64,000 nt of DNA from NCBI GenBank assembly GCA_903820745.1, contig CAIJIT010000013.1, forward strand, positions 16,447-80,446, written 5' to 3'. Positions within the stretch are counted from its first letter, which is position 1. Each line of letters opens with the position of its first letter. Of the stretch, positions 16,438 through 64,000 are shown piece after piece. The position numbers and the translations under genes were made by a program. The notes beneath the pieces are model-generated. The model worked only from the letters and a program-made list of their open reading frames with translations. It was not told where the DNA came from and did no database searches. The DNA comes from an uncultured Burkholderiales bacterium. Its GTDB lineage: Bacteria; Pseudomonadota; Gammaproteobacteria; Burkholderiales; Burkholderiaceae_C.

Positions 16438-16477
16438 TGCAAGGGCAGCCTGTGCTCGAATGCATGGCTACAATCGC

Positions 16478-50030: not shown

Positions 50031-50501
50031 GTGACCCCGTCCAAAAATACCGATTACAAGATTCAGCGCGAATGCTCGCGCCAATGGCGCAGCGTCGTCG
50101 CAGCGATGGCGCAGGAGTTGTCACTCGCCAGCCGGCACAGCAATGGGCATGATTTCGGTCACCGCATCGGCCAGCGCTATGCAACCCAATCGGCCTTGCC
50201 AGTCTGCAGCAATCTGGACGAACTGCAGGCCGCCATCTCGGCCCGCTGGCAGAGCATGGACTGGGGTTGGATCGACCTCGACGATGCTGGCGGCAGGCTG
50301 CGCATCGTTCACCATGGCGCGGGCAACGGCGACCTGCTCGCTTCGGCCTTGGGCGATGACACCAAAGTCTGGGTGCCTTCATTCCTCAGCGGCGTCTACC
50401 AGCAATGGCTGGCCAGCCTCGGCGCGAGCGACGAATTGCGGGTCCGGCAGGTCAGCCCGGTCGACGAGTTCGGCACGCTCGAGCTCGAACTCAGTTTGTA
50501 G
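50031..50501 (+). CDS. bcsD: Cellulose biosynthesis protein BcsD
   Basis: QWRSVVAAMAQEL...GHRIGQRYA...WGWIDLDD; first gene of bcs operon; GTG with upstream AGGAG. Confidence 0.78.
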   Translation: MTPSKNTDYKIQRECSRQWRSVVAAMAQELSLASRHSNGHDFGHRIGQRYATQSALPVCSNLDELQAAISARWQSMDWGWIDLDDAGGRLRIVHHGAGNGDLLASALGDDTKVWVPSFLSGVYQQWLASLGASDELRVRQVSPVDEFGTLELELSL

Positions 50502-50548
50502 GCCTCGGTGCAAGCAAGCTGTCAATCAAACCCTTCGGAAGCTTTCAA

Positions 50549-51016
50549 ATGAAAACGGCAAAAGACATCCAGAGCCTGAAATCCATCGTCGGCGATGACT
50601 TTGGTGACTACCGCGAAATCGTTCGCGACGAACTGGCAAGCAAATGCCAGGCCCGCTGGCCGCTGCTGGCACAAGGCCTGAGCGCAGAGCCGGTGACGAC
50701 CACGGCGCGACGCGGCAGGCGGCGCGAACGTCCCTGGACCAGCGTCGATTTACCGGTCGAATCACCCGCCGTACCGGATCGCAACCGCGCCACCCAAGCA
50801 GCGCCAATGCCGATGCGCACCCCAGAGCGCGCCATAGCGGCCCTGCCAGTGCTGCCACCGGTGATCACCTCCGCGCCCCAGCCAGCAAAGCCGCAGCCGC
50901 AACCTGCATCAAACAATCAGCTCGGTCAGCTCTTCAAACGGATCGAATCGACGCAGCGCGCCGAAGCCGGCCTGGCGGCCGACATCAAGTTGAAACTCTT
51001 CAAGAAGGCGGCCTGA
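50549..51016 (+). CDS. BcsP/BcsR-like small cellulose biosynthesis protein
   Basis: MKTAKDIQSLKSIVGDDFGDYREI, Pro-rich middle, C-terminal LGQLFKRIES; between bcsD and bcsQ. Confidence 0.7.
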   Translation: MKTAKDIQSLKSIVGDDFGDYREIVRDELASKCQARWPLLAQGLSAEPVTTTARRGRRRERPWTSVDLPVESPAVPDRNRATQAAPMPMRTPERAIAALPVLPPVITSAPQPAKPQPQPASNNQLGQLFKRIESTQRAEAGLAADIKLKLFKKAA

Positions 51017-51018
51017 GC

Positions 51019-51795
51019 ATGAAAGTCATTGCCATCGTTTCAGCCAAGGGTGGCGTCGGCAAAACCACCTTCAGTGCCAACCTCAGCATGGCGATGTCGC
51101 GCGCCGGCGTACCGACGCTGGCCGTCGACCTTGATCCCCAGGATGCTTTGCACCTGCATTTCGGTCTCAGCATGCCCTGTGGCGATGGTCTGGTCGAAGC
51201 CACGCTGACCGGCATGGACTGGCGTCATGCCTTGCTGCAATCGGAGTTCGGTTGCGACTTGATGCCTTACGGCCAGGTCGAGGAAGAAGACCGCGAAGCT
51301 TTCGAACATCTACTCCGGGAACAGCCGCTGCTGCTGCGGCACAGGCTCGAGAGCTTGAATCTGCCCGATGATGCGGTGGTCATCCTCGATACGCCTCCCG
51401 GACCCTCGGTCTATCTGACTCAGGCCTTGTCTGCGGCCAATATGGCCTTGATCGTCGTACTGTCCGACGCGGCCTCCTACGCCACCCTGCCCTTGATGGT
51501 CGGCCTGATCCAGCGCTATTGCTTGAACCGCAGCGACTTCAATGACTACGCTTATCTGGTCAACCAGGTCGACCATTCGCGCCAACTCAACAGCGATGTC
51601 GCCTATGTCATGCGCACCCAGTTCGGCAAGAGGGCCTTGGGGCTGGTGCATCAGGATCAGGCCGTTCCTGAAGCACTAGCCTGCAACCAGTTCGTCTGCG
51701 ATTACGACCAGCACAGCCGCGGTGCCGCGGACTTGAAGCTGATTTGCGAGCAGATGCTGACTCGTCTGGCGCTGAGCACCCGGGCTGCGGCGTGA
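51019..51795 (+). CDS. bcsQ: BcsQ, MinD/ParA-like ATPase of cellulose biosynthesis
   Basis: IAIVSAKGGVGKTTFSANLS deviant Walker A; directly before bcsA. Confidence 0.93.
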   Translation: MKVIAIVSAKGGVGKTTFSANLSMAMSRAGVPTLAVDLDPQDALHLHFGLSMPCGDGLVEATLTGMDWRHALLQSEFGCDLMPYGQVEEEDREAFEHLLREQPLLLRHRLESLNLPDDAVVILDTPPGPSVYLTQALSAANMALIVVLSDAASYATLPLMVGLIQRYCLNRSDFNDYAYLVNQVDHSRQLNSDVAYVMRTQFGKRALGLVHQDQAVPEALACNQFVCDYDQHSRGAADLKLICEQMLTRLALSTRAAA

Positions 51796-53966
51796 AAAAC
51801 GCAGCCCCAGCCCGGCCAGCCGAATGGCTGTCAGGCGTACCCATCAAACCTCGCTGGCAAGCCCATCCGCTGTTGAGCAAGTTGCTGCTGCTGGTCGCTG
51901 CAATCATGACCGCCCTGGTGATTGCCGTGCCGCTCGACGTCTATCAACAATTCGCCTTCGGCAGCGTCACGGTGATCGCAGCACTCTGGATCAGGCGTTC
52001 GATTGCTGGCCAGATTGGGGTGATGCTGCTGGTCGTGCTGTCGGTGACCGCATCGCTGCGCTATATGTTCTGGCGCTTGAGCAATACGCTCGACTTCGAT
52101 CATCTGCTCGACGGCATCCTTGGTTGGGGCTTGGTGTTGGCCGAACTCTACGCTTTGACCATCCTGCTGCTCGGCTATGTGCAGACGACCATGCCCTTGA
52201 AGCGCAGGCCACTGCCCTTGCCCGCCGACATCGGCACATGGCCGACGATCGATGTCTTCATTCCAACCTATAACGAACCGCTGAGCGTAGTTCGTGCCAC
52301 GGTACTGGCCGCGCAGTCAATGGACTGGCCGAGCGGCCGCTTGCGCGTCCATCTGCTCGACGATGGCCGCCGCGAGGAATTCAGAGTCTTCAGCCAGGCC
52401 GCCGGAGCGATCTACCTGACCCGTCCTGACAACTCCCATGCCAAGGCCGGCAACCTCAACGCTGCCTTGGCCCGCACCCAAGGCGAGTTCGTGGTGATCT
52501 TCGACTGCGACCATGTGCCGACAAGGTCATTTCTGCAACTCACCCTGGGCGCTTTCCTGCAGGACAAGAAGCTGGCCATGTTGCAGACGCCCCATGTCTT
52601 TTATTCACCCGATCCATTCGAACGCAACCTCAACACCTTCCGCGTTGTCCCCAACGAAGGCGAACTGTTCTATGGCCTGGTGCAGGACGGCAACGACCTC
52701 TGGAATGCCGCTTTCTTCTGCGGCTCCTGCGCCGTGCTGCGACGCAAGGCCTTGCTGGAGGTCGGCGGCATTGCTGTCGAGACTGTCACTGAAGACGCGC
52801 ATACCTCGCTGAAGATGAGCCGCAAGGGCTACAACATGGCTTATCTGGCGATCCCGCAGGCTGCCGGTCTGGCCACCGAAAGCCTGTCAGCCCATATCGG
52901 ACAGCGCATCCGCTGGGCGCGCGGCATGGCACAGATCTTCCGGATCGACAACCCGTTTCTGGGCCGCGGCCTGACCTGGGGCCAAAGACTCTGCTATGCC
53001 AACGCGATGCTGCATTTTTTCTATGGGTTACCACGCCTGGTGTTCCTGACCGCGCCCTTGGCCTATCTCTTTTTCGGCGCACAGATCTTCCAGGCTTCGG
53101 GAGTGATGGTCTTGACGTTTGCCTTGCCGCATATTCTGCTGAGCATTGCGACCAACTCGAGACTGCAGGGCCAATTCCGACACAGCTTCTGGAACGAGGT
53201 CTATGAGACCGTCCTGGCCTGGTACATCAGCTGGCCGGTGCTTTTGGCCTTGATCAGCCCCAAGCTCGGCAAGTTCAATGTCACGGCCAAGGGCGGCATC
53301 GTCAAGGAAAACTATTACGACTGGCGCATGGGCTCACCCTATCTGGTGCTGCTGCTGCTGAATCTGGCCGGGCTGGCCGCCGGTGCCTGGCGCCTGCTGG
53401 CCGGCGATGGCAGTGCTGCGACCGTGGTGATCAATCTGGCCTGGAGCCTCTACAACATCACCATCGCCAGTGCGGCCGTCTTCGTTGCCAACGAAGCCAG
53501 CCAGATGCGTTCAACGCCGCGGGTCAATGCCATGCTGCCGGCGACGATCCACCTGCCCAATGGTCGCACTCTGGTCTGCGAGACCCGCGATCTGTCGACC
53601 GACGGAGTCAGTCTAGCCCTGCCCGCCGAGACCAGCGTCAAGCTGGGCGAAAAGTTCAATATTGCGCTGAGTAGCAGCAGCTTCGAGACCGTGCTTCCCG
53701 GCACCGTGGTCAGCGAAGGGTCAGTCATCGGCATCGAGTTCGCCGCTTTGACCGTCACCCAGCAACGCGAACTGGCGCAGATCACCTTCTCGCGCGCCGA
53801 TGCCTGGCTGGGCGAATGGGGCCGCTCGACGATCGACGCGCCCTTGACCTCGCTGCGCAATGTATTGAGTTTTGGTGGCGCCAACCTGTTGCGCTTGTCC
53901 TTGGGCAAAGGCTTCGGTATGCCCGTCAAGTTGCGCCGCGACGCCAGCCTCCCCAACAAACCATGA
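51792..53966 (+). CDS. bcsA: UDP-forming cellulose synthase catalytic subunit with C-terminal PilZ
   Basis: DVFIPTYNEP, FDCDHVP, TED, QRIRWARGM (Q(Q/R)xRW); PilZ RSTPR...DLSTDG c-di-GMP motifs. Confidence 0.97.
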   Translation: MKNAAPARPAEWLSGVPIKPRWQAHPLLSKLLLLVAAIMTALVIAVPLDVYQQFAFGSVTVIAALWIRRSIAGQIGVMLLVVLSVTASLRYMFWRLSNTLDFDHLLDGILGWGLVLAELYALTILLLGYVQTTMPLKRRPLPLPADIGTWPTIDVFIPTYNEPLSVVRATVLAAQSMDWPSGRLRVHLLDDGRREEFRVFSQAAGAIYLTRPDNSHAKAGNLNAALARTQGEFVVIFDCDHVPTRSFLQLTLGAFLQDKKLAMLQTPHVFYSPDPFERNLNTFRVVPNEGELFYGLVQDGNDLWNAAFFCGSCAVLRRKALLEVGGIAVETVTEDAHTSLKMSRKGYNMAYLAIPQAAGLATESLSAHIGQRIRWARGMAQIFRIDNPFLGRGLTWGQRLCYANAMLHFFYGLPRLVFLTAPLAYLFFGAQIFQASGVMVLTFALPHILLSIATNSRLQGQFRHSFWNEVYETVLAWYISWPVLLALISPKLGKFNVTAKGGIVKENYYDWRMGSPYLVLLLLNLAGLAAGAWRLLAGDGSAATVVINLAWSLYNITIASAAVFVANEASQMRSTPRVNAMLPATIHLPNGRTLVCETRDLSTDGVSLALPAETSVKLGEKFNIALSSSSFETVLPGTVVSEGSVIGIEFAALTVTQQRELAQITFSRADAWLGEWGRSTIDAPLTSLRNVLSFGGANLLRLSLGKGFGMPVKLRRDASLPNKP

Positions 53967-56251
53967 ACCAGACGATGTCATCGATGTCAAGATTCCCGAC
54001 CCCTGCGCATCCTGCCGCCCGCAAACTTGTTCGGTTGATGGCGGTAGCCATGCTGAGCTGTTGTGCGACCCTGGGCGCCCAGCCTGCCAGCAAGCCCGAC
54101 AGCGCTTTGACAACTGCTGCGACTGAAGGCATCCCTTACCACTTGAGTTTCAAGCAACTCGGTGTCAAGCAGCCCTTCAATCTGCGTGGCGTCGATGGCC
54201 GTTATGCGATCCCGTTCAATGTCCGGGCCGATGAGGTGATCACCAAGGCGACGCTCAAGCTCAGCTATGCCTATTCGCCCGAACTGCTCAGCGAGCTGTC
54301 AAAAATCAATGTCTTGATCAACGGCGAAGTCGCCGCCAGCCTGCCCTTGCCCAAGGAAGGGGCCGGTGCGCAGGTGAACCAGACCGTCAACCTGCCGCCG
54401 CAACTGATCACCGAGTACAACCAGCTGACCCTGCAGTTGATCGGGCATTACACGACCGGCTGCGAAGACCCCCAGCACAGCAGCTTGTGGGCCAATATCA
54501 GCAACCAGAGCGAGCTCGAACTGAGCACCGACGCCAACCCCTTGCCGAACGAGCTCGCCGCATTGCCGGAGCCATTTTTCGATGCCAGAGACGGCCGCAA
54601 CCTGCGCTTGCCGGTGGTGTTCCAGGGCCAACCTGACAACAACATGCTTGAAGCCGCAGGCACGGTGGCCTCCTGGTTCGGCGCCCGTGCCAAGGGCAGG
54701 ATCCTGCATTTCCCGGCGGCCATCGATCTGATTCCGGCCAAGGGCAATGCCATCGTCTTCCTGAGTGGACAGGCCGCCATCAGCGGGATGAAAATGCCCA
54801 GCGCATCTGGGCCGACCGTGGCGGTGTTTGCCAATCCGAACGACCCGGCCGGCAAGTTGCTGCTGGTGATGGGACGCGATAGCCAGGACCTGAAACTGGC
54901 AGCAAGAGCGCTTGCCAATGGATCGAAAGCCTTGACCGGACCGCTGGCCTCGATCACCGAAGCCCCCGAACTTCGCCCACGCCGGCCCTACGACGCGCCG
55001 AACTGGCTGCGTGCCGACCGACCGGTCAAACTGAGTGAATTGAGCAGCGCTCAAGCGCTTGATGTCACCGGCTATGACCCAGGCGCGATCGCCATCAAGC
55101 TGCGTCTGCCCCCTGACCTCTTCGTCAGGCAGGACAAAGGCGTACCGCTGAATCTGAAATACCGCTACACGCCACAACCAACCTCGGCCAATTCATCGCT
55201 GACGGTCGACGTAAATGGCAAATTCGTGAAATCAGTGCCTCTGCTGCCGATCGAAAAACTCGGCACCGGGCCAATGCTGGCCAAACTGCAATCCGACGAA
55301 ACGCTGCCAATGCAGGTGATGGCGCGAATCCCGCTGGCGATGCTGCAACCGAGGTCGCAGATCGACCTGCGTTACCAATACGACTACATCAAGCAAGGCG
55401 AATGCCGCGACGTCATCATCGACAACGTGCGCGGCGCCATCGACCCGGACTCAACTGTCGACATCTCGGGCTATGGCCATTATCTAGCCATGCCCGACCT
55501 GGCCGCATTCGGTCGCATCGGCTTTCCCTTCACCCGCCTGGCTGATCTCTCGCAGACGGCCGTGGTGCTGCCGGATCAGCCCAAAGTCCAGGAGCTCTCG
55601 GCCTATCTGGACCTGCTGGGTCGCCTTGGCGAGTCGACCGGCTATCCAGGCACCGGCATCGAGGTGGTACGCGGCGCGCAGGTCGACAGCGTTGCAGCCA
55701 AGGACTTGCTGCTGATCGCCTCGGGTGACAACCAGCCCTTGCTGAAGTCATGGTCCGGCGCAATGCCAACAGGCCTCGACGACAGCCAACGCTCGGGTCT
55801 GGCCGGGACGTTCGACCAGGCCATCGGCTGGCTGGCCGGGTTCCTGCCCGAATCTCTCAAAGCTGAGACGACAGGCCAATTCAGCAGCAAGGGCATGAAC
55901 GCCTTTGCGGCCGGATTCGAATCACCGCTGCGCAGTGGCCGCTCGGTGGTGTTGCTCTGGGGCGCCGACCCCAACGGCTTGCAAGCCGGCATCGGGGCGC
56001 TGCTCGGAGAGGATCTGCTGGCCTCGAAGATTTCGGGCAGCTTGGCGGTACTGCGCGGCCAGCAAGTCGAGATGCTCAACTCGAAGCCGACCTACCATGT
56101 CGGCGACCTCGACTGGTTCAACCAGTCACGCATGCACTTGTCGGGTAATTTCACTCTGTTGCTGCTGATCGGCGCCTTCGGCGCCTTGTTGCTGGCCTTG
56201 CCGGCCCGGGCGGTCCTGCGCGCCCAGGCCAACAGGCGTGCAAGCAAATGA
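53963..56251 (+). CDS. bcsB: Cellulose synthase regulatory subunit BcsB
   Basis: Signal peptide, FNLRGVDGRYAIPFNVRADEVITKATLKLSYAYSPEL, C-terminal TM; after bcsA. Confidence 0.94.
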   Translation: MNQTMSSMSRFPTPAHPAARKLVRLMAVAMLSCCATLGAQPASKPDSALTTAATEGIPYHLSFKQLGVKQPFNLRGVDGRYAIPFNVRADEVITKATLKLSYAYSPELLSELSKINVLINGEVAASLPLPKEGAGAQVNQTVNLPPQLITEYNQLTLQLIGHYTTGCEDPQHSSLWANISNQSELELSTDANPLPNELAALPEPFFDARDGRNLRLPVVFQGQPDNNMLEAAGTVASWFGARAKGRILHFPAAIDLIPAKGNAIVFLSGQAAISGMKMPSASGPTVAVFANPNDPAGKLLLVMGRDSQDLKLAARALANGSKALTGPLASITEAPELRPRRPYDAPNWLRADRPVKLSELSSAQALDVTGYDPGAIAIKLRLPPDLFVRQDKGVPLNLKYRYTPQPTSANSSLTVDVNGKFVKSVPLLPIEKLGTGPMLAKLQSDETLPMQVMARIPLAMLQPRSQIDLRYQYDYIKQGECRDVIIDNVRGAIDPDSTVDISGYGHYLAMPDLAAFGRIGFPFTRLADLSQTAVVLPDQPKVQELSAYLDLLGRLGESTGYPGTGIEVVRGAQVDSVAAKDLLLIASGDNQPLLKSWSGAMPTGLDDSQRSGLAGTFDQAIGWLAGFLPESLKAETTGQFSSKGMNAFAAGFESPLRSGRSVVLLWGADPNGLQAGIGALLGEDLLASKISGSLAVLRGQQVEMLNSKPTYHVGDLDWFNQSRMHLSGNFTLLLLIGAFGALLLALPARAVLRAQANRRASK

Positions 56252-57438
56252 GCAAAATCAGCAAGGGGCTGGCTGCCGTCGGGCTGGCCTTGACCGCAGC
56301 CGTCTCGGGAGGCACCACCGACAACTGTGACGCCCAGGATTGGCGGCATTGGCAGGAGTTCAAGCAACATTTCATCGCACCGGATGGGCGCGTTCTGGCG
56401 GCCAACAGCGCGATGCGCGACAGCTTTTCTGAAGCCCAGTCCTATGCCATGTTCTTCGCCTTGGTGGCCAACGACCAAGAGGCCTTCAACCGCCTCTGGC
56501 ACTGGTCGGTGCAGAACCTGCTGGGCGCTGACAAGACTGACGGAAGACTGCCTGCCTGGCATTGGGGCCGCGCCAGCGACGGCAGCTGGCGTGTCCTCGA
56601 CAGCAATTCGGCTGCCGATGCCGACCAATGGTTTGCCTACGCCCTGCTCGAAGGCGGCAGGATCTGGTCGCGTGACGATCTGTTGCACGACGGGCAAACG
56701 CTGCTCAAGGCGATCGCCAAACAGGAAGTCGTCGACCTGCCCGGCATCGGGCCAATGCTGCTGCCCGCGCCCTATGGTTTTGTACAGACCGATGGCAGCT
56801 GGCGGCTCAATCCCAGCTACCTGGCCTTGCCGCTGTTGCGTCGCTTCGCGCAGGATGATCCGCAAGGCCCCTGGGACGACATCGCCAAGAACTCCATTTT
56901 ACTGATTGCCCTGGCCAGCCCCAAGGGACTGGTGGCGGACTGGATCGGCTATCGGGCCGCTGCGGATCGCCGGCCGCAGGTCACGGTCGACCCGGTGCTC
57001 GGCGCGCGCGGCAGCTACGACGCGATTCGCGTCTACCTCTGGGCCGGCATGACGGCGGCTGAGGATCCGCTGGCCGCCCCGCTACTGAAATCCTTGAGTG
57101 GCATGACCCGGAGCAACCCGAAGGACGCTTGGCCGCCTGAATCAGTCGATGTGCAGACCGGTCTGGCCAACGGCAGCGGGCCTTTCGGATTCTCAGCCGC
57201 CCTGGCGCCCTATCTGCAGCAAGTCGGCGCGAGTGGGCCGATGTTGCAGCAGGTCGAGCGGGCTCGCATGATGCGCACCGCCTCGTTGCTGCCCGAGCAA
57301 CTCGCCAAGGGCCTGCCGCTTTATTACGACCATGTGCTGAGTCTGTTCGGGCTCGGCTGGATTGAACAGCGCTTCAGCTTCGCGCGCAATGGACAGGTGC
57401 AACTCAAATGGCAAAACTCATGTTCCCCGGCAAACTAG
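56248..57438 (+). CDS. bcsZ: Periplasmic endoglucanase BcsZ (GH8)
   Basis: ANSAMRDSFSEAQSYAMFFALVANDQEAFNRLWHW, DSNSAADADQWFAYALLEGGRIW. Confidence 0.94.
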   Translation: MSKISKGLAAVGLALTAAVSGGTTDNCDAQDWRHWQEFKQHFIAPDGRVLAANSAMRDSFSEAQSYAMFFALVANDQEAFNRLWHWSVQNLLGADKTDGRLPAWHWGRASDGSWRVLDSNSAADADQWFAYALLEGGRIWSRDDLLHDGQTLLKAIAKQEVVDLPGIGPMLLPAPYGFVQTDGSWRLNPSYLALPLLRRFAQDDPQGPWDDIAKNSILLIALASPKGLVADWIGYRAAADRRPQVTVDPVLGARGSYDAIRVYLWAGMTAAEDPLAAPLLKSLSGMTRSNPKDAWPPESVDVQTGLANGSGPFGFSAALAPYLQQVGASGPMLQQVERARMMRTASLLPEQLAKGLPLYYDHVLSLFGLGWIEQRFSFARNGQVQLKWQNSCSPAN

Positions 57439-60400
57439 CCCTCGGTCTGATCGTCGGCGCCAGCTGCCAGACCGGAAGCGTCTATGCAGCCGCCAACAAG
57501 GCTCTGCTCGATCAAGGGCTGTTCTGGCAAACGCAGGGCAATAACGAACGCGCTGCCGAAGCCTGGAAGAAGCTTTTGCGGCTCGAGCCTGACGAGCCGC
57601 GGGCCTTGTACGGCCTGGCGCAGGTTGAGATCAATCAAAAGCGCAGCCCGGCCGAATTGCTGGCACGACTGCAGGCGCTGGATCCGAACAGCCCCTTTGT
57701 CGCGCTGCTCGAACAGGACATCAACCTGCGCACCGCTGAGGGTCCGAAGGCGTTGGACAAGGCAAGGCTGCTGTACGAGTCGCGTGAGGTCGAACAAGCG
57801 CTTGAACAGTTCCAACTGGCGCTGCGCGGCAAAGAACCGCAGGGCGCGATTGCGCTCGAGTATTACCTGATGCTGAGCCAATCGGCCAGCGGTTTCAAAC
57901 CTGCACGCAGCGGCCTCGAACGGCTGGCCAAGGCCTCCCCCAACGATCCACAGATCGAGATGCACCTGGCATTTCTGTTGGCGCGCGGCGAAGCCCCGAA
58001 GCTGCAGACACGCATCGAGGGCATCGAGCGCCTGGCTCGCGTGGCGCTGATTCCGAGTGTCAGCGGCTTTGCCACCGAAAGCTGGAAGATGGCGCTGGGC
58101 TGGCTGAACGTGACCAAGACCGAGACGCTGGGCCTGTTCGATAATTTCCTGAAGGTCCACCCCGACGACACCGAGGTGCGCGAGTTGCGCAATGTCTGGG
58201 CCAAAAAACTGCAGGCACAGTCCCGATCGGCCGAGCCGCCGCCGCTCAACCCGCAAATCGCCGCCGGGCTGAAAGCGCTCAAGCAGGGCGACCTTGAGCA
58301 GGCCGAGGGCGAGTACCAGGCCCGCTTGAAGACCAGCCCGAACGACCCCGATGCGCTCGGCGGTCTCGGCGTGGTACGCCTGCAGCAATACCGGCTGGAA
58401 GAATCGCAGGCCTTGCTGATTCGCGCCACGCAGCAAAAGAAAGGCGCCAACTGGGCCCCGACCTTGAAGGCAGCAAGCTACCAATTACTGATCGAACAGG
58501 CAGTCGCTGCCCAGCGTGAAGCCGATTTCAGCGCCGCCGCAAGCCTGCTGCAGCAGGCCATCAAGCTCGACCCCAAGCAAAGCAGTGCCGACCTTGCGCT
58601 GGGCACGATGCAGTTCGAGTCGGGACAGCTCGTGGCCGCTGAAATCAGCTACCGCGAGTTGTTGGCCAGGCTCGAGAACAATGTGGCAGCCATGCGTGGC
58701 CTGGCCCTGGTGCTGGCGGCGGCCGACAAGCCCGAGGAGGCCCGCAGCATCATCAAGCGGCTGAGCCCGGACCAGGTCGGTGGCATCGAGGAGATGAAGC
58801 GCCTGCGTTCGGCCCTGGTCAGCGGCTTGGCCAAGGCGGCACTGCGCCGCGGCGACCTCCCGCTGGCCAGGTCGACCCTCGAAGAGGCGATGGCGCAGGA
58901 CCGCGACAACCCCTGGATCCGCTGGGAACTGGCCGATTTGTATGCCAAGCAAGGCCGGGTCAGCGAAGCGCGCGGCCTGATCGACGGTCTGCTGGCCAGC
59001 CAACCCGACAACCCGGTGGCGTTGTTTGCCAGTGCCAGCTTTGCCGCCGCCAACGGCCAGTTCCGCAGCGCCTTGGCGACGCTGGACCGCATTGCCGGCG
59101 AGGATCGAAGCGCCGACATGGCCAAGTTGCAAAGGCGCAGTTGGCTGCAGTATCAGGCCGCGCTGGCGCGGGATCTGGCCGGTCAAAACCGCAGGCGGGA
59201 AGCGCTGGCGCTGTTGGCCCAGGCAGAACAACTGACCGGCGCCAGCCGTGATCTGGTCGGCCTGCTGGCCGAAGCCTATGTCGATGCCGGTGCACCGAAC
59301 CGGGGTCTGGCGATGATGCGCCAGCAAATCGCGCGCAGCAGCCAGCCGCTGCCAGCCGATCTGCTGCAATATGCCGGCCTGCTGCTGAAGACCCAGCAGG
59401 ATGTCGAATGTGCTGGCGTGCTGCAGGACCTGGGGTCGCGCACGTTGACCCCGGACTTGCGCCAACGCCTGGACGATCTGTCCTTCCTGCACGAGCTGCG
59501 ACAGGTCGATCTTCTCCGCGAACGCGGCGCCTTGCTGGCTGCCAACGACAAACTGCTGCCCTTGCTCAGGCAGCGCCCGGCTGACCCTTTGGCCATTGCT
59601 GTGCAAGCGCGCTGGTTTGCAGCCAGCGGCGAGCGAAAAAAGGCGCTCGATCTGTCCGGACAGTTGGCCGAAAAATACCCCGACAAGGTCGAATTCCAGC
59701 TCGCTGCGGCGCAACTGGCGGCCCAGTTCAAACAGCCCGAGCAGGCCGACAAAGCGATCAAGGCAGCGCTTGCTCTCGCCCCCGATGACAGCGAATTGCT
59801 GGCAAGTGCAGCCCGCCTGTACCAGGCAGTGGGCAAGTCGACCCAGGCCGCAGCGCTGTTCGAACGCGCCATCGCCTTGCAGAATGCGCCGCTGCCAAAG
59901 CCTGCGGCATTGCTCGTCGCGGCTGCCGACAATCAGGATGCACAAGGCAAGGTCTGGCCGGCCTGGCTGCCGACGACACAACTGCCACCGACAAGTCCTG
60001 CCGCCTATTTGTCCAATGCCCAGCCGGCGCCGGTTTTGTTGATGGCAGCTGTCAGCGAATCAGCAGCAACCGAGAAACCCTCCCGCCGCAATCTGAACAA
60101 GGAGCTCGACGCGATCAAGCAAGCGCATAGCCCCGAGCTGCGGGTCGGCGCGCAAACGCTGCAGCGCAGCGGCAATGCCGGCAGCAGCCAGCTCAAGCTG
60201 AGCGAGCTGCCGGTCGAGCTGAGCTATCCGGTCGGCGAAGGCAAGGTCATGCTGCAGGTGACGCAGGTGGCCTTGAATACCGGCGCGCTCACCGATAAAG
60301 CCCATGGTCTGGCGCGTTCGATCGGCTACGAGTCCGAAGGCCTGAGCGTCGATCTCGGACAAACCCCGGTCGGTTTCACCGTGCACCATGTCAGCGGCGG

Positions 60401-61133
60401 CCTCAAGTTCAACGGCAGCCTCGGCGCCGGTGATTCACTCACGTACAGGGCCAATTTATCGAGCCGGCCGGTCACCGACAGCTTGCAGTCCTACGCCGGC
60501 TTGGTCGATCCCCTCACGGGTCAGCGCTACGGCGGTGTGATGGCACGCGGCCTGCGCCTTGAACTCAGCAAGGACCAAGGCGGCTATGGCTTTACCGGCG
60601 CAGTCGCGCTGCACAGCTTGCGCGGCGAACAGGTCGCATCGAACCGGCGCAGAGAAATCAACCTGGGCGGCTATGTCGAACTGCTGCGCCCCAGCGACAA
60701 GCAATTCAGCAGCGGTTTGAACTTCACCTCGCTGGCTTACCAGAAGAACCTCAGCGACTTTGGCGTCAACCAGGGCGGCTACTTCAGCCCGCAGCGCTAC
60801 AGCGCGATCACTGTGCCGCTGAACTGGAGCTTGCGTACCGGCCGGGTCAGCTACAAGCTCGAAGGTGCGCTGGGCTACCAGAAGTTCCAGCAGGACGGAG
60901 CGCTCGACGCCAGCGGTTTGCCGACGCCATCGCAAAGCAATTCGGGCCTCGCCTACAAGCTCGCCGCCAGCGCGATGGCGCAGATCGCGCCGCAGTGGTA
61001 CCTCGACGCAAGCCTGCACAGCGACAACAGCGCCCGCGGCAGCTACCACCAATGGGCCGCCGGATTGACGCTGCGCTACAGCTTCTACACCCTCAGCCCC
61101 GAGCCCGCCGGTACCTCGACCTACGGCCAGTAA
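57408..61133 (+). CDS. bcsC: Cellulose export TPR/outer-membrane protein BcsC
   Basis: Signal peptide, many TPR units, C-terminal beta-barrel (YGGVMARGLRLELSKDQGGYGFTG...YSFYTL); overlaps bcsZ by 31 nt. Confidence 0.93.
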   Translation: MAKLMFPGKLALGLIVGASCQTGSVYAAANKALLDQGLFWQTQGNNERAAEAWKKLLRLEPDEPRALYGLAQVEINQKRSPAELLARLQALDPNSPFVALLEQDINLRTAEGPKALDKARLLYESREVEQALEQFQLALRGKEPQGAIALEYYLMLSQSASGFKPARSGLERLAKASPNDPQIEMHLAFLLARGEAPKLQTRIEGIERLARVALIPSVSGFATESWKMALGWLNVTKTETLGLFDNFLKVHPDDTEVRELRNVWAKKLQAQSRSAEPPPLNPQIAAGLKALKQGDLEQAEGEYQARLKTSPNDPDALGGLGVVRLQQYRLEESQALLIRATQQKKGANWAPTLKAASYQLLIEQAVAAQREADFSAAASLLQQAIKLDPKQSSADLALGTMQFESGQLVAAEISYRELLARLENNVAAMRGLALVLAAADKPEEARSIIKRLSPDQVGGIEEMKRLRSALVSGLAKAALRRGDLPLARSTLEEAMAQDRDNPWIRWELADLYAKQGRVSEARGLIDGLLASQPDNPVALFASASFAAANGQFRSALATLDRIAGEDRSADMAKLQRRSWLQYQAALARDLAGQNRRREALALLAQAEQLTGASRDLVGLLAEAYVDAGAPNRGLAMMRQQIARSSQPLPADLLQYAGLLLKTQQDVECAGVLQDLGSRTLTPDLRQRLDDLSFLHELRQVDLLRERGALLAANDKLLPLLRQRPADPLAIAVQARWFAASGERKKALDLSGQLAEKYPDKVEFQLAAAQLAAQFKQPEQADKAIKAALALAPDDSELLASAARLYQAVGKSTQAAALFERAIALQNAPLPKPAALLVAAADNQDAQGKVWPAWLPTTQLPPTSPAAYLSNAQPAPVLLMAAVSESAATEKPSRRNLNKELDAIKQAHSPELRVGAQTLQRSGNAGSSQLKLSELPVELSYPVGEGKVMLQVTQVALNTGALTDKAHGLARSIGYESEGLSVDLGQTPVGFTVHHVSGGLKFNGSLGAGDSLTYRANLSSRPVTDSLQSYAGLVDPLTGQRYGGVMARGLRLELSKDQGGYGFTGAVALHSLRGEQVASNRRREINLGGYVELLRPSDKQFSSGLNFTSLAYQKNLSDFGVNQGGYFSPQRYSAITVPLNWSLRTGRVSYKLEGALGYQKFQQDGALDASGLPTPSQSNSGLAYKLAASAMAQIAPQWYLDASLHSDNSARGSYHQWAAGLTLRYSFYTLSPEPAGTSTYGQ

Positions 61134-61186
61134 GGCCTGACTCGCAGCGTTTTCTCCAATTCACCCACAACCCCGGACCGTTTCCC

Positions 61187-61843
61187 ATGCCCGCGTCAAC
61201 CCTCGCCGGACTCGCCTTGCTCGTCATCGGCGAAAGCCATCTGTCCCAAGCCAATTACCTGATCAATCCATTGCACGAAGAGCTGAGCGCGCAAGGCGCC
61301 AAAGTCCATGCGATCGGTGCCTGTGGCGCCAGCGCGGGCGACTGGCTCAAGACCGTCACCGTGCCCTGCGGCGCCGACCGCAGCAGCGGTGCTGCCATCA
61401 TCAAGGGGCGCGATGCGACGACAACACCGATCAAACAGTTGATCGCTGCCGAAAAACCCGATGTCGTCGTTGTCATCATTGGCGATGCGATGGCCTCTTA
61501 CGACAAAGATGCCTTTCCTCGCGCCTGGGCTTGGCAGGGCGTGACCAGCTTGGCCAAGGAGATCGCGGCCACCCACACCAGCTGCGTCTGGGTCGGCCCG
61601 CCCTGGGGGCAAGCCGGCGGCAAATACAAAAAAAACGACCAGCGGGTCGAGCAGATGTCGAACTTTCTGGCCAGCAATGTGGCGCCCTGCATCTATGTTG
61701 ATTCGCTGAAATTCGCGAAGCCCGGCCAATGGGCGACGCTGGATGGCCAGCATCTGACGCTGGCCGGTTATAAATCTTGGAGCCAGGCGATGACCCAGGC
61801 GATCGCTGGCCTGCCGGCCATTCAGGGTCTGAAAAAGCCATGA
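61187..61843 (+). CDS. SGNH/GDSL-hydrolase-like protein (WssF-like position)
   Basis: VIGESHLS block I (GES rather than GDS), VVVVIIGDAMA, DGQHLTLAGYKSW Asp-His block. Confidence 0.75.
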   Translation: MPASTLAGLALLVIGESHLSQANYLINPLHEELSAQGAKVHAIGACGASAGDWLKTVTVPCGADRSSGAAIIKGRDATTTPIKQLIAAEKPDVVVVIIGDAMASYDKDAFPRAWAWQGVTSLAKEIAATHTSCVWVGPPWGQAGGKYKKNDQRVEQMSNFLASNVAPCIYVDSLKFAKPGQWATLDGQHLTLAGYKSWSQAMTQAIAGLPAIQGLKKP

Positions 61844-62514
61844 GGACAGTCAGCAAGACGGTCTGGGCTGCGGCGGCAATCACCGCGATGGCTGCCGCAG
61901 CTCACGGCGCCGAGATTCCTTTGTACGAGACCGGCCCCGGTCAAGATGCAGCCTTTGTCCGCTTCGTCAATGCCCGCAGCGCAGCGCTTGATGTCAAGGC
62001 AGCCGGATCAAACGCCAGCGCCAAATTGGCGCCGGAGAAGCCAGCCAGCAACTTCTTTCCCGTCCCCGCCAACCGGGTGATGAAAGGCAAGTTCAGCGAC
62101 AAACAGGTTCAAAGCGAGATCGCGGTCAGCGTCAAGCCGGGCGAGTTCGCCACCGTGGTGGCGCTGCCTGGCAGCGGCGACATCAAGCAGACCGTGTTGC
62201 GCGAGCAGCCCGACGACTTCAATGCCTTGAAGGTGTCGCTGGCTCTCTATAACCTCGACAAGCGCTGCAAGGCCGCCGGGCTGAACGTGCTGGGTCGCAG
62301 CGCGGCGCTGTTCGAAGGCGTGGCTAGCGGCAGCCTGGCAAGGCGCACGCTCAATCCGGTCAATATCTCGGTGCAACTGCAATGCCAGGGTCAGCTTGAC
62401 CAGGCCACGCTGGCGCTGGGCGCCTTGCAAGCGGGCCAGCGCTACAGCATCTTCGTGATGCCGGCCGATACCGGCTCCAGACTGGTCATTGCCGCTGACC
62501 AGTTGGCACAGTAA
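61840..62514 (+). CDS. AlgF-like cellulose/alginate acetylation protein (WssG-like)
   Basis: Signal peptide; EIPLYETGPGQDAAFVRFVNA; ATGA overlap with SGNH gene; precedes MBOAT gene. Confidence 0.82.
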   Translation: MRTVSKTVWAAAAITAMAAAAHGAEIPLYETGPGQDAAFVRFVNARSAALDVKAAGSNASAKLAPEKPASNFFPVPANRVMKGKFSDKQVQSEIAVSVKPGEFATVVALPGSGDIKQTVLREQPDDFNALKVSLALYNLDKRCKAAGLNVLGRSAALFEGVASGSLARRTLNPVNISVQLQCQGQLDQATLALGALQAGQRYSIFVMPADTGSRLVIAADQLAQ

Positions 62515-62527
62515 ACCGGGAGCCTTG

Positions 62528-63916
62528 ATGGTCTTCGCATCGCTTGAGTTCTTGACCTTGTTCCTGCCGCTGTTCCTGACGCTCTATGCGCTGGTCGGGC
62601 CGACCCGCCGCAACGCCTTGCTGCTGCTTTGCAGCTGGGTCTTCTATGGCTGGTGGAGCCCGACTTTCCTGCTGCTCTTCATCGGCCTGGCAGCGATGGG
62701 CTGGATCGGCGGCCTGGTGATCGATCGCCTGGAACAGGGCCGCGGCCTGGCCCTGGCGTTTTTCATTGCCGTCAACCTGGCGCTGCTGTGCTGGTTCAAG
62801 TACGCCAACATCCTGGTCGAAAGTCTGCCCTTGGCGGCCGGGTTCAGCGCGCAATGGCAGCAGGTGCTGCTGCCGATCGGACTGTCCTTCATCGTGCTGC
62901 AGTCGATTTCCTACCTGGTCGATGTGTACCGCCGCAGCATCCCGGCTGACCCCAGTTTCACCAGCTTCGGTGCCTACCAATCGATGTTCGTGCACCTGAT
63001 CGCCGGGCCGATCATCCGCTATCAATGGGTCAAGCAGGAGCTCATGTCGCGGAGTTTCGACTGGCCGCAATTCGCCCAGGGTGCGCGCCGCTTCATGACC
63101 GGAATGAGCATGAAGGTGCTGATCGCCGACACCATCGCCCCGGTGGTCGATCTCGCATTCAGCCTGCAGCAGCCGTCGCTGCTGGACAGCTGGATCGGCT
63201 GCCTGGCTTACACCTTGCAGCTGTTCTTCGACTTCGCCGGCTACAGCGGCATGGCGATCGGACTCGGGCTGATGCTGGGTTTTCGTTTCCCCGAAAACTT
63301 TCGCCAGCCCTACCTCGCCACCAGCATCCAGGACTTCTGGCGCCGCTGGCATCTGTCGCTGTCGAGCTGGATCCGCGACTACCTCTACATCCCCTTCGGT
63401 GGCAATCGGGTCGGCGCGCTGCGGGTCTATATCAACTTGTTGCTGACGATGGCGATCGCCGGACTCTGGCATGGCGGCGACAGCTGGAACTTTCTGCTTT
63501 GGGGCAGTGCCCATGGCCTGGCGCTTTGCATCGCAAGAGCCTGGGGCCAAGCCGGCTGGCCCAAGCCCTCACCGCTGCTGTCGCGCGTCCTGACGCTGCT
63601 GTTCGTGATGCTGGCCTGGACGATCTTCCGGGCCCACAGTTTCGAGGGCGCAATGCGGATGTATGCGGGCCAAGCCGGCTTGAACGGCATTGACATCGGA
63701 GTGGCGATGGCGGTGCTGTTGCGCCCGGTCCATGGCCTGGCCTTGGGTCTGGGCCTGGTCTGCGTGCTGGCGCCAGCGTTGCGGGCGCCGATCGCCAACC
63801 GGCTGCCGGCAAGCACCCTGGCAATGGCCAGCCAATGGCCATTGCCGGCCTTCCTGTTCTCCTACGCACTGATCGCCAGTCGCGGCGCCACCCCGTTTCT
63901 CTACTTCCAGTTCTGA
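62528..63916 (+). CDS. MBOAT family O-acyltransferase (AlgI/WssH-like)
   Basis: MVFASLEFLTLFLPLFLTLY, FFDFAGYSGMAIGLGLMLGFRFPENF, IQDFWRRWHLSLSSWIRDYLYIPFGGNR, MAIAGLWHGGDSWNFLLWG; intact-looking C-terminus FLYFQF. Confidence 0.95.
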   Translation: MVFASLEFLTLFLPLFLTLYALVGPTRRNALLLLCSWVFYGWWSPTFLLLFIGLAAMGWIGGLVIDRLEQGRGLALAFFIAVNLALLCWFKYANILVESLPLAAGFSAQWQQVLLPIGLSFIVLQSISYLVDVYRRSIPADPSFTSFGAYQSMFVHLIAGPIIRYQWVKQELMSRSFDWPQFAQGARRFMTGMSMKVLIADTIAPVVDLAFSLQQPSLLDSWIGCLAYTLQLFFDFAGYSGMAIGLGLMLGFRFPENFRQPYLATSIQDFWRRWHLSLSSWIRDYLYIPFGGNRVGALRVYINLLLTMAIAGLWHGGDSWNFLLWGSAHGLALCIARAWGQAGWPKPSPLLSRVLTLLFVMLAWTIFRAHSFEGAMRMYAGQAGLNGIDIGVAMAVLLRPVHGLALGLGLVCVLAPALRAPIANRLPASTLAMASQWPLPAFLFSYALIASRGATPFLYFQF

Positions 63917-63920
63917 GTCA

Positions 63921-64000
63921 TTGACATCCTCCCCGCCCTAAAGGGCGGGGATTCCCTCTACAGGGGCTGCATGTCCGCAGCCGGCTCTGAACTTTGACAG
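63921..64000 (-). mobile_element. Terminus of an IS200/IS605-family-like element running off the right edge
   Basis: ttgacatcctCCCCGCCCtaaaGGGCGGGGattccctctacagggg: subterminal hairpin; minus-strand reading CTGTAGAGGGAATCCCCGCCCTTTAGGGCGGGGAGGATGTCAA resembles right ends of such elements. Confidence 0.7.

Follow-up and report, generated by a model that had tools for sequence, protein, structure and literature searches.

The window, the whole 64,000-nucleotide stretch of DNA analysed here, corresponds to positions 16447–80446 of contig C13 of a 5.1-Mb genome (357 contigs). The host is a freshwater-type bacterium. Profile searches identified a run of genes at 50031–63916 in the order bcsD-bcsP-bcsQ-bcsA-bcsB-bcsZ-bcsC, followed by wssF-wssG-wssH (Table 1). 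All ten open reading frames are located on the + strand, with boundaries at or beside those of the initial annotation, which had the genes, their order, and their common direction right. Nine of the ten have Pfam or NCBIfam matches far above chance, the exception being the SGNH open reading frame (wssF). The type II Bcs genes bcsE and bcsG are absent among the ten.

Table 1. Features of the cellulose operon and of the element at its 3' side. Coordinates are window positions unless a contig is named.
Feature	Coordinates	Strand	Evidence and remarks
bcsD (cellulose synthase subunit D)	50031..50501	+	PF03500, E 1.2e-16; GTG start, AGGAG upstream
bcsP-like	50549..51016	+	PF10945, 8e-10, above cut-off; BcsR-like N-terminus and Pro-rich tail
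bcsQ (MinD-like ATPase)	51019..51795	+	TIGR03371, 5.5e-66
bcsA (cellulose synthase with PilZ domain)	51792..53966	+	TIGR03030, 3e-270; PilZ, 1.5e-11
bcsB	53963..56251	+	PF03170, 5e-219
bcsZ (GH8 endoglucanase)	56248..57438	+	NF008305, 2e-131
bcsC (TPR repeats and outer-membrane barrel)	57408..61133	+	PF05420, 1e-70; TPR families
wssF (SGNH/GDSL enzyme)	61187..61843	+	predicted fold; relatives at same operon position
wssG (AlgF-like)	61840..62514	+	PF11182, 3e-9; signal-peptide-like N-terminus
wssH (AlgI-like MBOAT acetyl transporter)	62528..63916	+	PF03062, 3e-23
IS605-type right end and tnpB 3' end	63921..64000	-	contig breaks inside element
wssI (AlgJ/AlgX-type)	contig C30, L034:18709-19863	-	PF16822, 3e-76

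The first gene encodes BcsD, as had been proposed. Its match to PF03500 is above the cut-off, and the family profile also matches the solved BcsD structures 8pkd, 3a8e, and 7zzq; a bcsD gene is the mark of a type I Bcs system. A second type I feature is a proline-rich BcsD partner with a BcsR-like N-terminus, which in betaproteobacteria is BcsP. The tail of the BcsP-like protein is 14.5% proline beyond residue 45, and the protein scores 35.1 bits against the NCBIfam BcsP model NF040718, below that model's cut-off of 55. BcsA is the sole cellulose synthase match in the genome and keeps its catalytic and PilZ motifs (DDG, DCD, TED, QRIRW, RxxxR, and DxSxxG). WssG only just passes the AlgF cut-off (36.9 bits vs 34.4 for PF11182). 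The WssH family also matches DltB structures, and His315 and His329 of WssH are invariant across five relatives. The succession of bcsQABZC and then wssF, wssG, and wssH is that of the Wss acetylated-cellulose system, and the SGNH fold of WssF together with the AlgF and MBOAT matches bears out the proposal of a Wss-type O-acetylation module.

The genes had been described as mostly overlapping, which is accurate for five of the nine junctions; the others are gaps of 47 nt (bcsD-bcsP), 2 nt (bcsP-bcsQ), 53 nt (bcsC-wssF), and 13 nt (wssG-wssH). No terminator-like site was found in the 53-nt gap between bcsC and wssF, and the bcsD and acetylation modules are joined in one gene run, as had been suggested. 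A search for a sigma-70 promoter for the operon gave no convincing candidate, an absence that says little.

At E 0.001, Pfam returned no match to WssF. The protein was modelled with AlphaFold (mean pLDDT 92.4), and Foldseek assigned the model an SGNH/GDSL fold, with canonical GDSL esterases as the best folds; an invariant Ser17 is located directly past the first strand. Relatives that are 60–98% identical occupy the same operon position, between bcsC and the AlgF gene, in dozens of genomes. In the literature, WssF is described as homologous to AlgX and as a candidate for the terminal transferase (PMC10302187). We rejected an AlgX-like assignment: the permuted SGNH domain of the ALGX/AlgJ type was not recognized in WssF, none of 37 WssF proteins had an ALGX match, and hhalign of WssF against WssI returned a probability of 1.3%. 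This result is relevant to the question of which Wss protein carries out the terminal transfer. In-frame stops a few codons upstream leave most WssF relatives too little space for a classical signal peptide. A plainly cytoplasmic WssF was not accepted either, since all 37 WssF proteins share exactly four invariant cysteines, in a disulphide-like pattern.

Contig C13 itself stops at window position 64000, and the end of the window is thus a contig end. The IS605-type right end at this border starts 4 nt past wssH, and its hairpin has 44 matches genome-wide, many of them at contig ends. In the copies of the element elsewhere in the genome, the tnpB 3' end is located at the right end and the tnpA 3' end at the left end. 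End fragments of these copies encode TnpA (Y1; PF01797, 4e-20) and TnpB (PF07282, 4e-10), and they have the subterminal hairpins and the fixed tetranucleotide beside the left end that characterize IS605. The tetranucleotide ATGA follows the left end in 17 of 17 left ends inspected; the target is TCAT (ATGA on the opposite strand). Among 19 left ends inspected for coding sequence, 10 have an open reading frame of at least 100 amino acids (one encoding an Obg-like protein) that starts in frame at this ATGA; the element thus tends to insert directly upstream of start codons, sparing them.

Beyond the insertion, and past what the initial annotation had covered, a wssI gene was found on contig C30. 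It is the only ALGX-family match in the genome and sits at the contig end, reading away from a left end of the same IS family. The 385-amino acid product belongs to a family that matches AlgJ and AlgX structures, and it keeps the Asp-His-Ser residues named for WssI in PMC10302187 (triad Asp204-His206-Ser313). It is 87–88% identical to WssI of the congeners G581 and G579, in both of which wssI follows wssH by 4 nt with no IS between. Notional excision of the IS gives CTGAGTCA joined to ATGACCATGCCC, as compared with CTGAGCCAATGAGCATGCCC in both congeners. With TCAT/ATGA as the target, 2 of 20 positions are mismatched to the congener junction, vs 3 of 20 with TTGA. The reverse placement, with the left IS end at wssH and TTGA as the target, was rejected, as the element's tnpB side faces wssH and its tnpA side faces wssI. 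An operon lacking a terminal acetyltransferase had also been considered, and was rejected once wssI was found on C30. Because the sole ALGX gene lies behind the other IS end and is adjacent to wssH in the IS-free congeners, we take the operon to be most likely a complete D-P-Q-A-B-Z-C-F-G-H-[IS605]-I set, split by the IS before wssI, with the join inferred across a collapsed repeat.

Comparison with the IS-free congeners gave dN/dS values of 0.04–0.23 across the operon genes, except for bcsC against G581 (0.37), and such values indicate that the operon genes are under purifying selection. For wssI, omega is 0.16–0.21 here vs 0.20 between the IS-free congeners, and a rate comparison against these congeners for decay of wssI detected no excess of amino-acid change. 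The lack of relaxed selection on wssI suggests that the IS insertion is recent or tolerated. An apparent in-frame stop in BcsA of G579 and G581 was dismissed: the stop in G579 is bcsA's own stop codon at the bcsA-bcsB junction, and G581 BcsA aligns over the same extent as G579 BcsA. The bcsC gene is 88–91% identical to that of G579 but 59% to that of G581, while the neighbouring genes are ~90% identical to both. An extra copy of wssF, absent from the window and from G579, lies after bcsC and ahead of the other wssF in G581 and G580. The divergence of bcsC and the extra wssF copy look like allele exchange or loss.

The pairing of bcsD with wss genes was followed in two samples. In the first, from the same family, BcsD was found in 18 of 201 genomes; wssF-wssG-wssH-wssI follow bcsC in G017 and G118, besides the window, and most bcsD operons examined in this family are without wssFGHI. 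The second sample started from WssF in named genomes, 48 of which were searched (28 betaproteobacterial and 20 gammaproteobacterial). BcsD was detected in 21 of these 48, all betaproteobacterial (21 of 28, vs none of 20 gammaproteobacterial genomes); the betaproteobacterial wssF genomes without it are six of Herbaspirillum and one fragmentary locus. The two modules share a contig, in the order seen here, in no fewer than 12 further genomes: G581, G017, G118, L204–L208 (two Comamonadaceae MAGs, Sheuella, and Polynucleobacter aenigmaticus with a close relative), Alcaligenaceae bin.388, two Pigmentiphaga, and Bordetella ansorpii. The operon had been regarded as an unusual hybrid, a view that its recurrence in many Burkholderiales does not support; it joins known modules in a way that is met repeatedly, and is not a singular hybrid. 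In the literature covered, no paper paired bcsD with wssFGHI, and an earlier description of this very operon class is possible. Each of the two Pigmentiphaga genomes (G606, L193/L194; G598, L191/L192) has two bcsD loci, one a hybrid locus without detectable bcsP or bcsQ between bcsD and bcsA, and the other with bcsQ. In Polynucleobacter rarus (L162) the order is rearranged to F-C-F-G-H-I-Q-A, and bcsD is ~175 kb distant within that record.

Betaproteobacterial type I/hybrid bcsD-bcsP-bcsQ operons have reportedly been described by Sana et al. 2024. Operons of this kind (PMC11470070) resemble the window in that bcsABZC is preceded by bcsD, a Pro-rich bcsP, and bcsQ. The wssABCDEFGHI operon of Pseudomonas fluorescens SBW25 shares the synthase order Q-A-B-Z-C and the acetylation order F-G-H-I, and in relatives WssF is 60–70% and WssH about 60% identical; the Pseudomonas relatives searched differ in having no BcsD (none of 20 gammaproteobacterial genomes). 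In Komagataeibacter, BcsD is encoded in bcsI, while bcsII has the WssF-like BcsX and the putative transacylase BcsY; the two functions are thus in separate operons, and homologues of wssGHIJ are absent (PMC9318390). The wss operon of Bordetella avium is likewise a betaproteobacterial acetylated-cellulose operon (PMC7112194); the queries of that study left out bcsD, and hence the bcsD-wss pairing was not scored there. Bordetella ansorpii, like the window, has bcsD upstream, along with an unusually long bcsB match (L203).

A BcsA tree, built by a quick method, unites 14 hybrid operons in a single starred group, which adjoins the Pseudomonas and Herbaspirillum operons with a support of 86–88 that is not starred. 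BcsA of G017 and G118 falls within bcsD-only groups. A single clade of all acetylating operons was rejected on this tree (AU p 6e-5), from which it follows that the bcsD and wss modules were joined or separated more than once; as the tree is unrooted, gain and loss look alike on it. The spread within Burkholderiales (Polynucleobacter, Pigmentiphaga, B. ansorpii) shows a common pairing, assembled or dismantled more than once. Tentatively, and with more doubt than confidence, scaffolded acetylated cellulose might be the common betaproteobacterial form of Wss, from which Pseudomonas wss lost bcsD and bcsP, and BcsD might couple synthase clustering to acetylation and not to crystallisation.

The locus is probably a bcsDPQABZC-wssFGHI operon of the betaproteobacterial kind, directing c-di-GMP-activated synthesis of O-acetylated cellulose, with the IS605 element most likely between wssH and wssI. 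This reading best explains the family matches, the single BcsA and ALGX genes, the IS ends, the congener junction, the dN/dS values, and the recurrent gene order. It also draws on homology, as WssI is a demonstrated O-acetyltransferase that acts on cello-oligomers (PMC10302187), and BcsD is brought into cytoskeletal assemblies or scaffolds by BcsP (PMC11470070). Counting against it are the sub-threshold NCBIfam score of BcsP, the narrow pass of WssG, the inferred join of C13 to C30, a possible block of wssI expression by the IS, and the negative promoter search. BcsD and the Pro-rich BcsP would form a cytoplasmic scaffold, assisted by BcsQ, that gathers and stabilises BcsA-BcsB synthases. The glucan would cross BcsB and then BcsC, with BcsZ trimming it. 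Transfer of acetyl over the inner membrane would fall to WssH, WssG would bridge the acetylation partners, and WssI would place the acetyl on the chain by way of its triad, with WssF as an additional SGNH enzyme of putative role. The initial annotation had suggested an acetylated yet BcsD-organised cellulose. Both modules are real, but the step from BcsD to Komagataeibacter-like ordered fibrils is weakened: a role for BcsD scaffolds in both crystalline and modified cellulose has been proposed (PMC11470070), and BcsD therefore does not imply crystalline fibrils. The operon combines a scaffold with acetylation enzymes expected to disturb crystallinity, and so offers a testable natural setting in which BcsD is separable from crystallinity.

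With wssI beyond the insertion, it is uncertain whether this strain acetylates its cellulose. Behind the IS, wssI retains its start codon and reading frame; the 4-nt spacing to wssH is gone, and acetylation may consequently be reduced or rely on transcription that originates in the element. The IS may block expression of wssI, and acetylation is possibly impaired. Taken to its extreme, the insertion would have silenced wssI, leaving wssFGH without a terminal transferase and a BcsD-scaffolded, essentially non-acetylated cellulose. The element does part wssH from wssI and puts hairpins upstream of the latter, but we consider complete silencing unlikely, given that wssI keeps its start codon and triad with no excess of amino-acid change vs IS-free congeners, and that the element's tnpA points at wssI and could feed transcription into it. 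The split provides a natural comparison with the intact congeners.

It is highly improbable that the ALGX gene on C30 belongs to another O-acetylation system and that the operon never had a wssI. The genome does have a second MBOAT gene, on C116 (L066; 41% identical to wssH), and the join to C30 spans an unassembled repeat, but the C30 gene is the sole ALGX match, its closeness to wssI of two congeners is to genes located directly after wssH, and its flank restores their wssH-wssI junction. Least credible of all is that the Wss genes act on a non-cellulose polymer or are passengers. AlgI/AlgF/AlgJ-type proteins acetylate alginate elsewhere; here, however, the only synthase-like genes nearby are those for cellulose, wssF-wssI come after bcsC in dozens of genomes, the operon is under purifying selection, and SBW25 genetics and WssI assays show acetylation of cellulose (PMC10302187).

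Two further bcsD operons, in G131 (L049) and G122 (L050), have a second bcsQ-like gene and a divergent glycosyltransferase that is 23–25% identical to BcsA. Of the acetylation genes, G131 has only wssH-wssI, without wssF or wssG, next to the divergent glycosyltransferase. Such a locus possibly specifies a different scaffolded, acetylated polymer.
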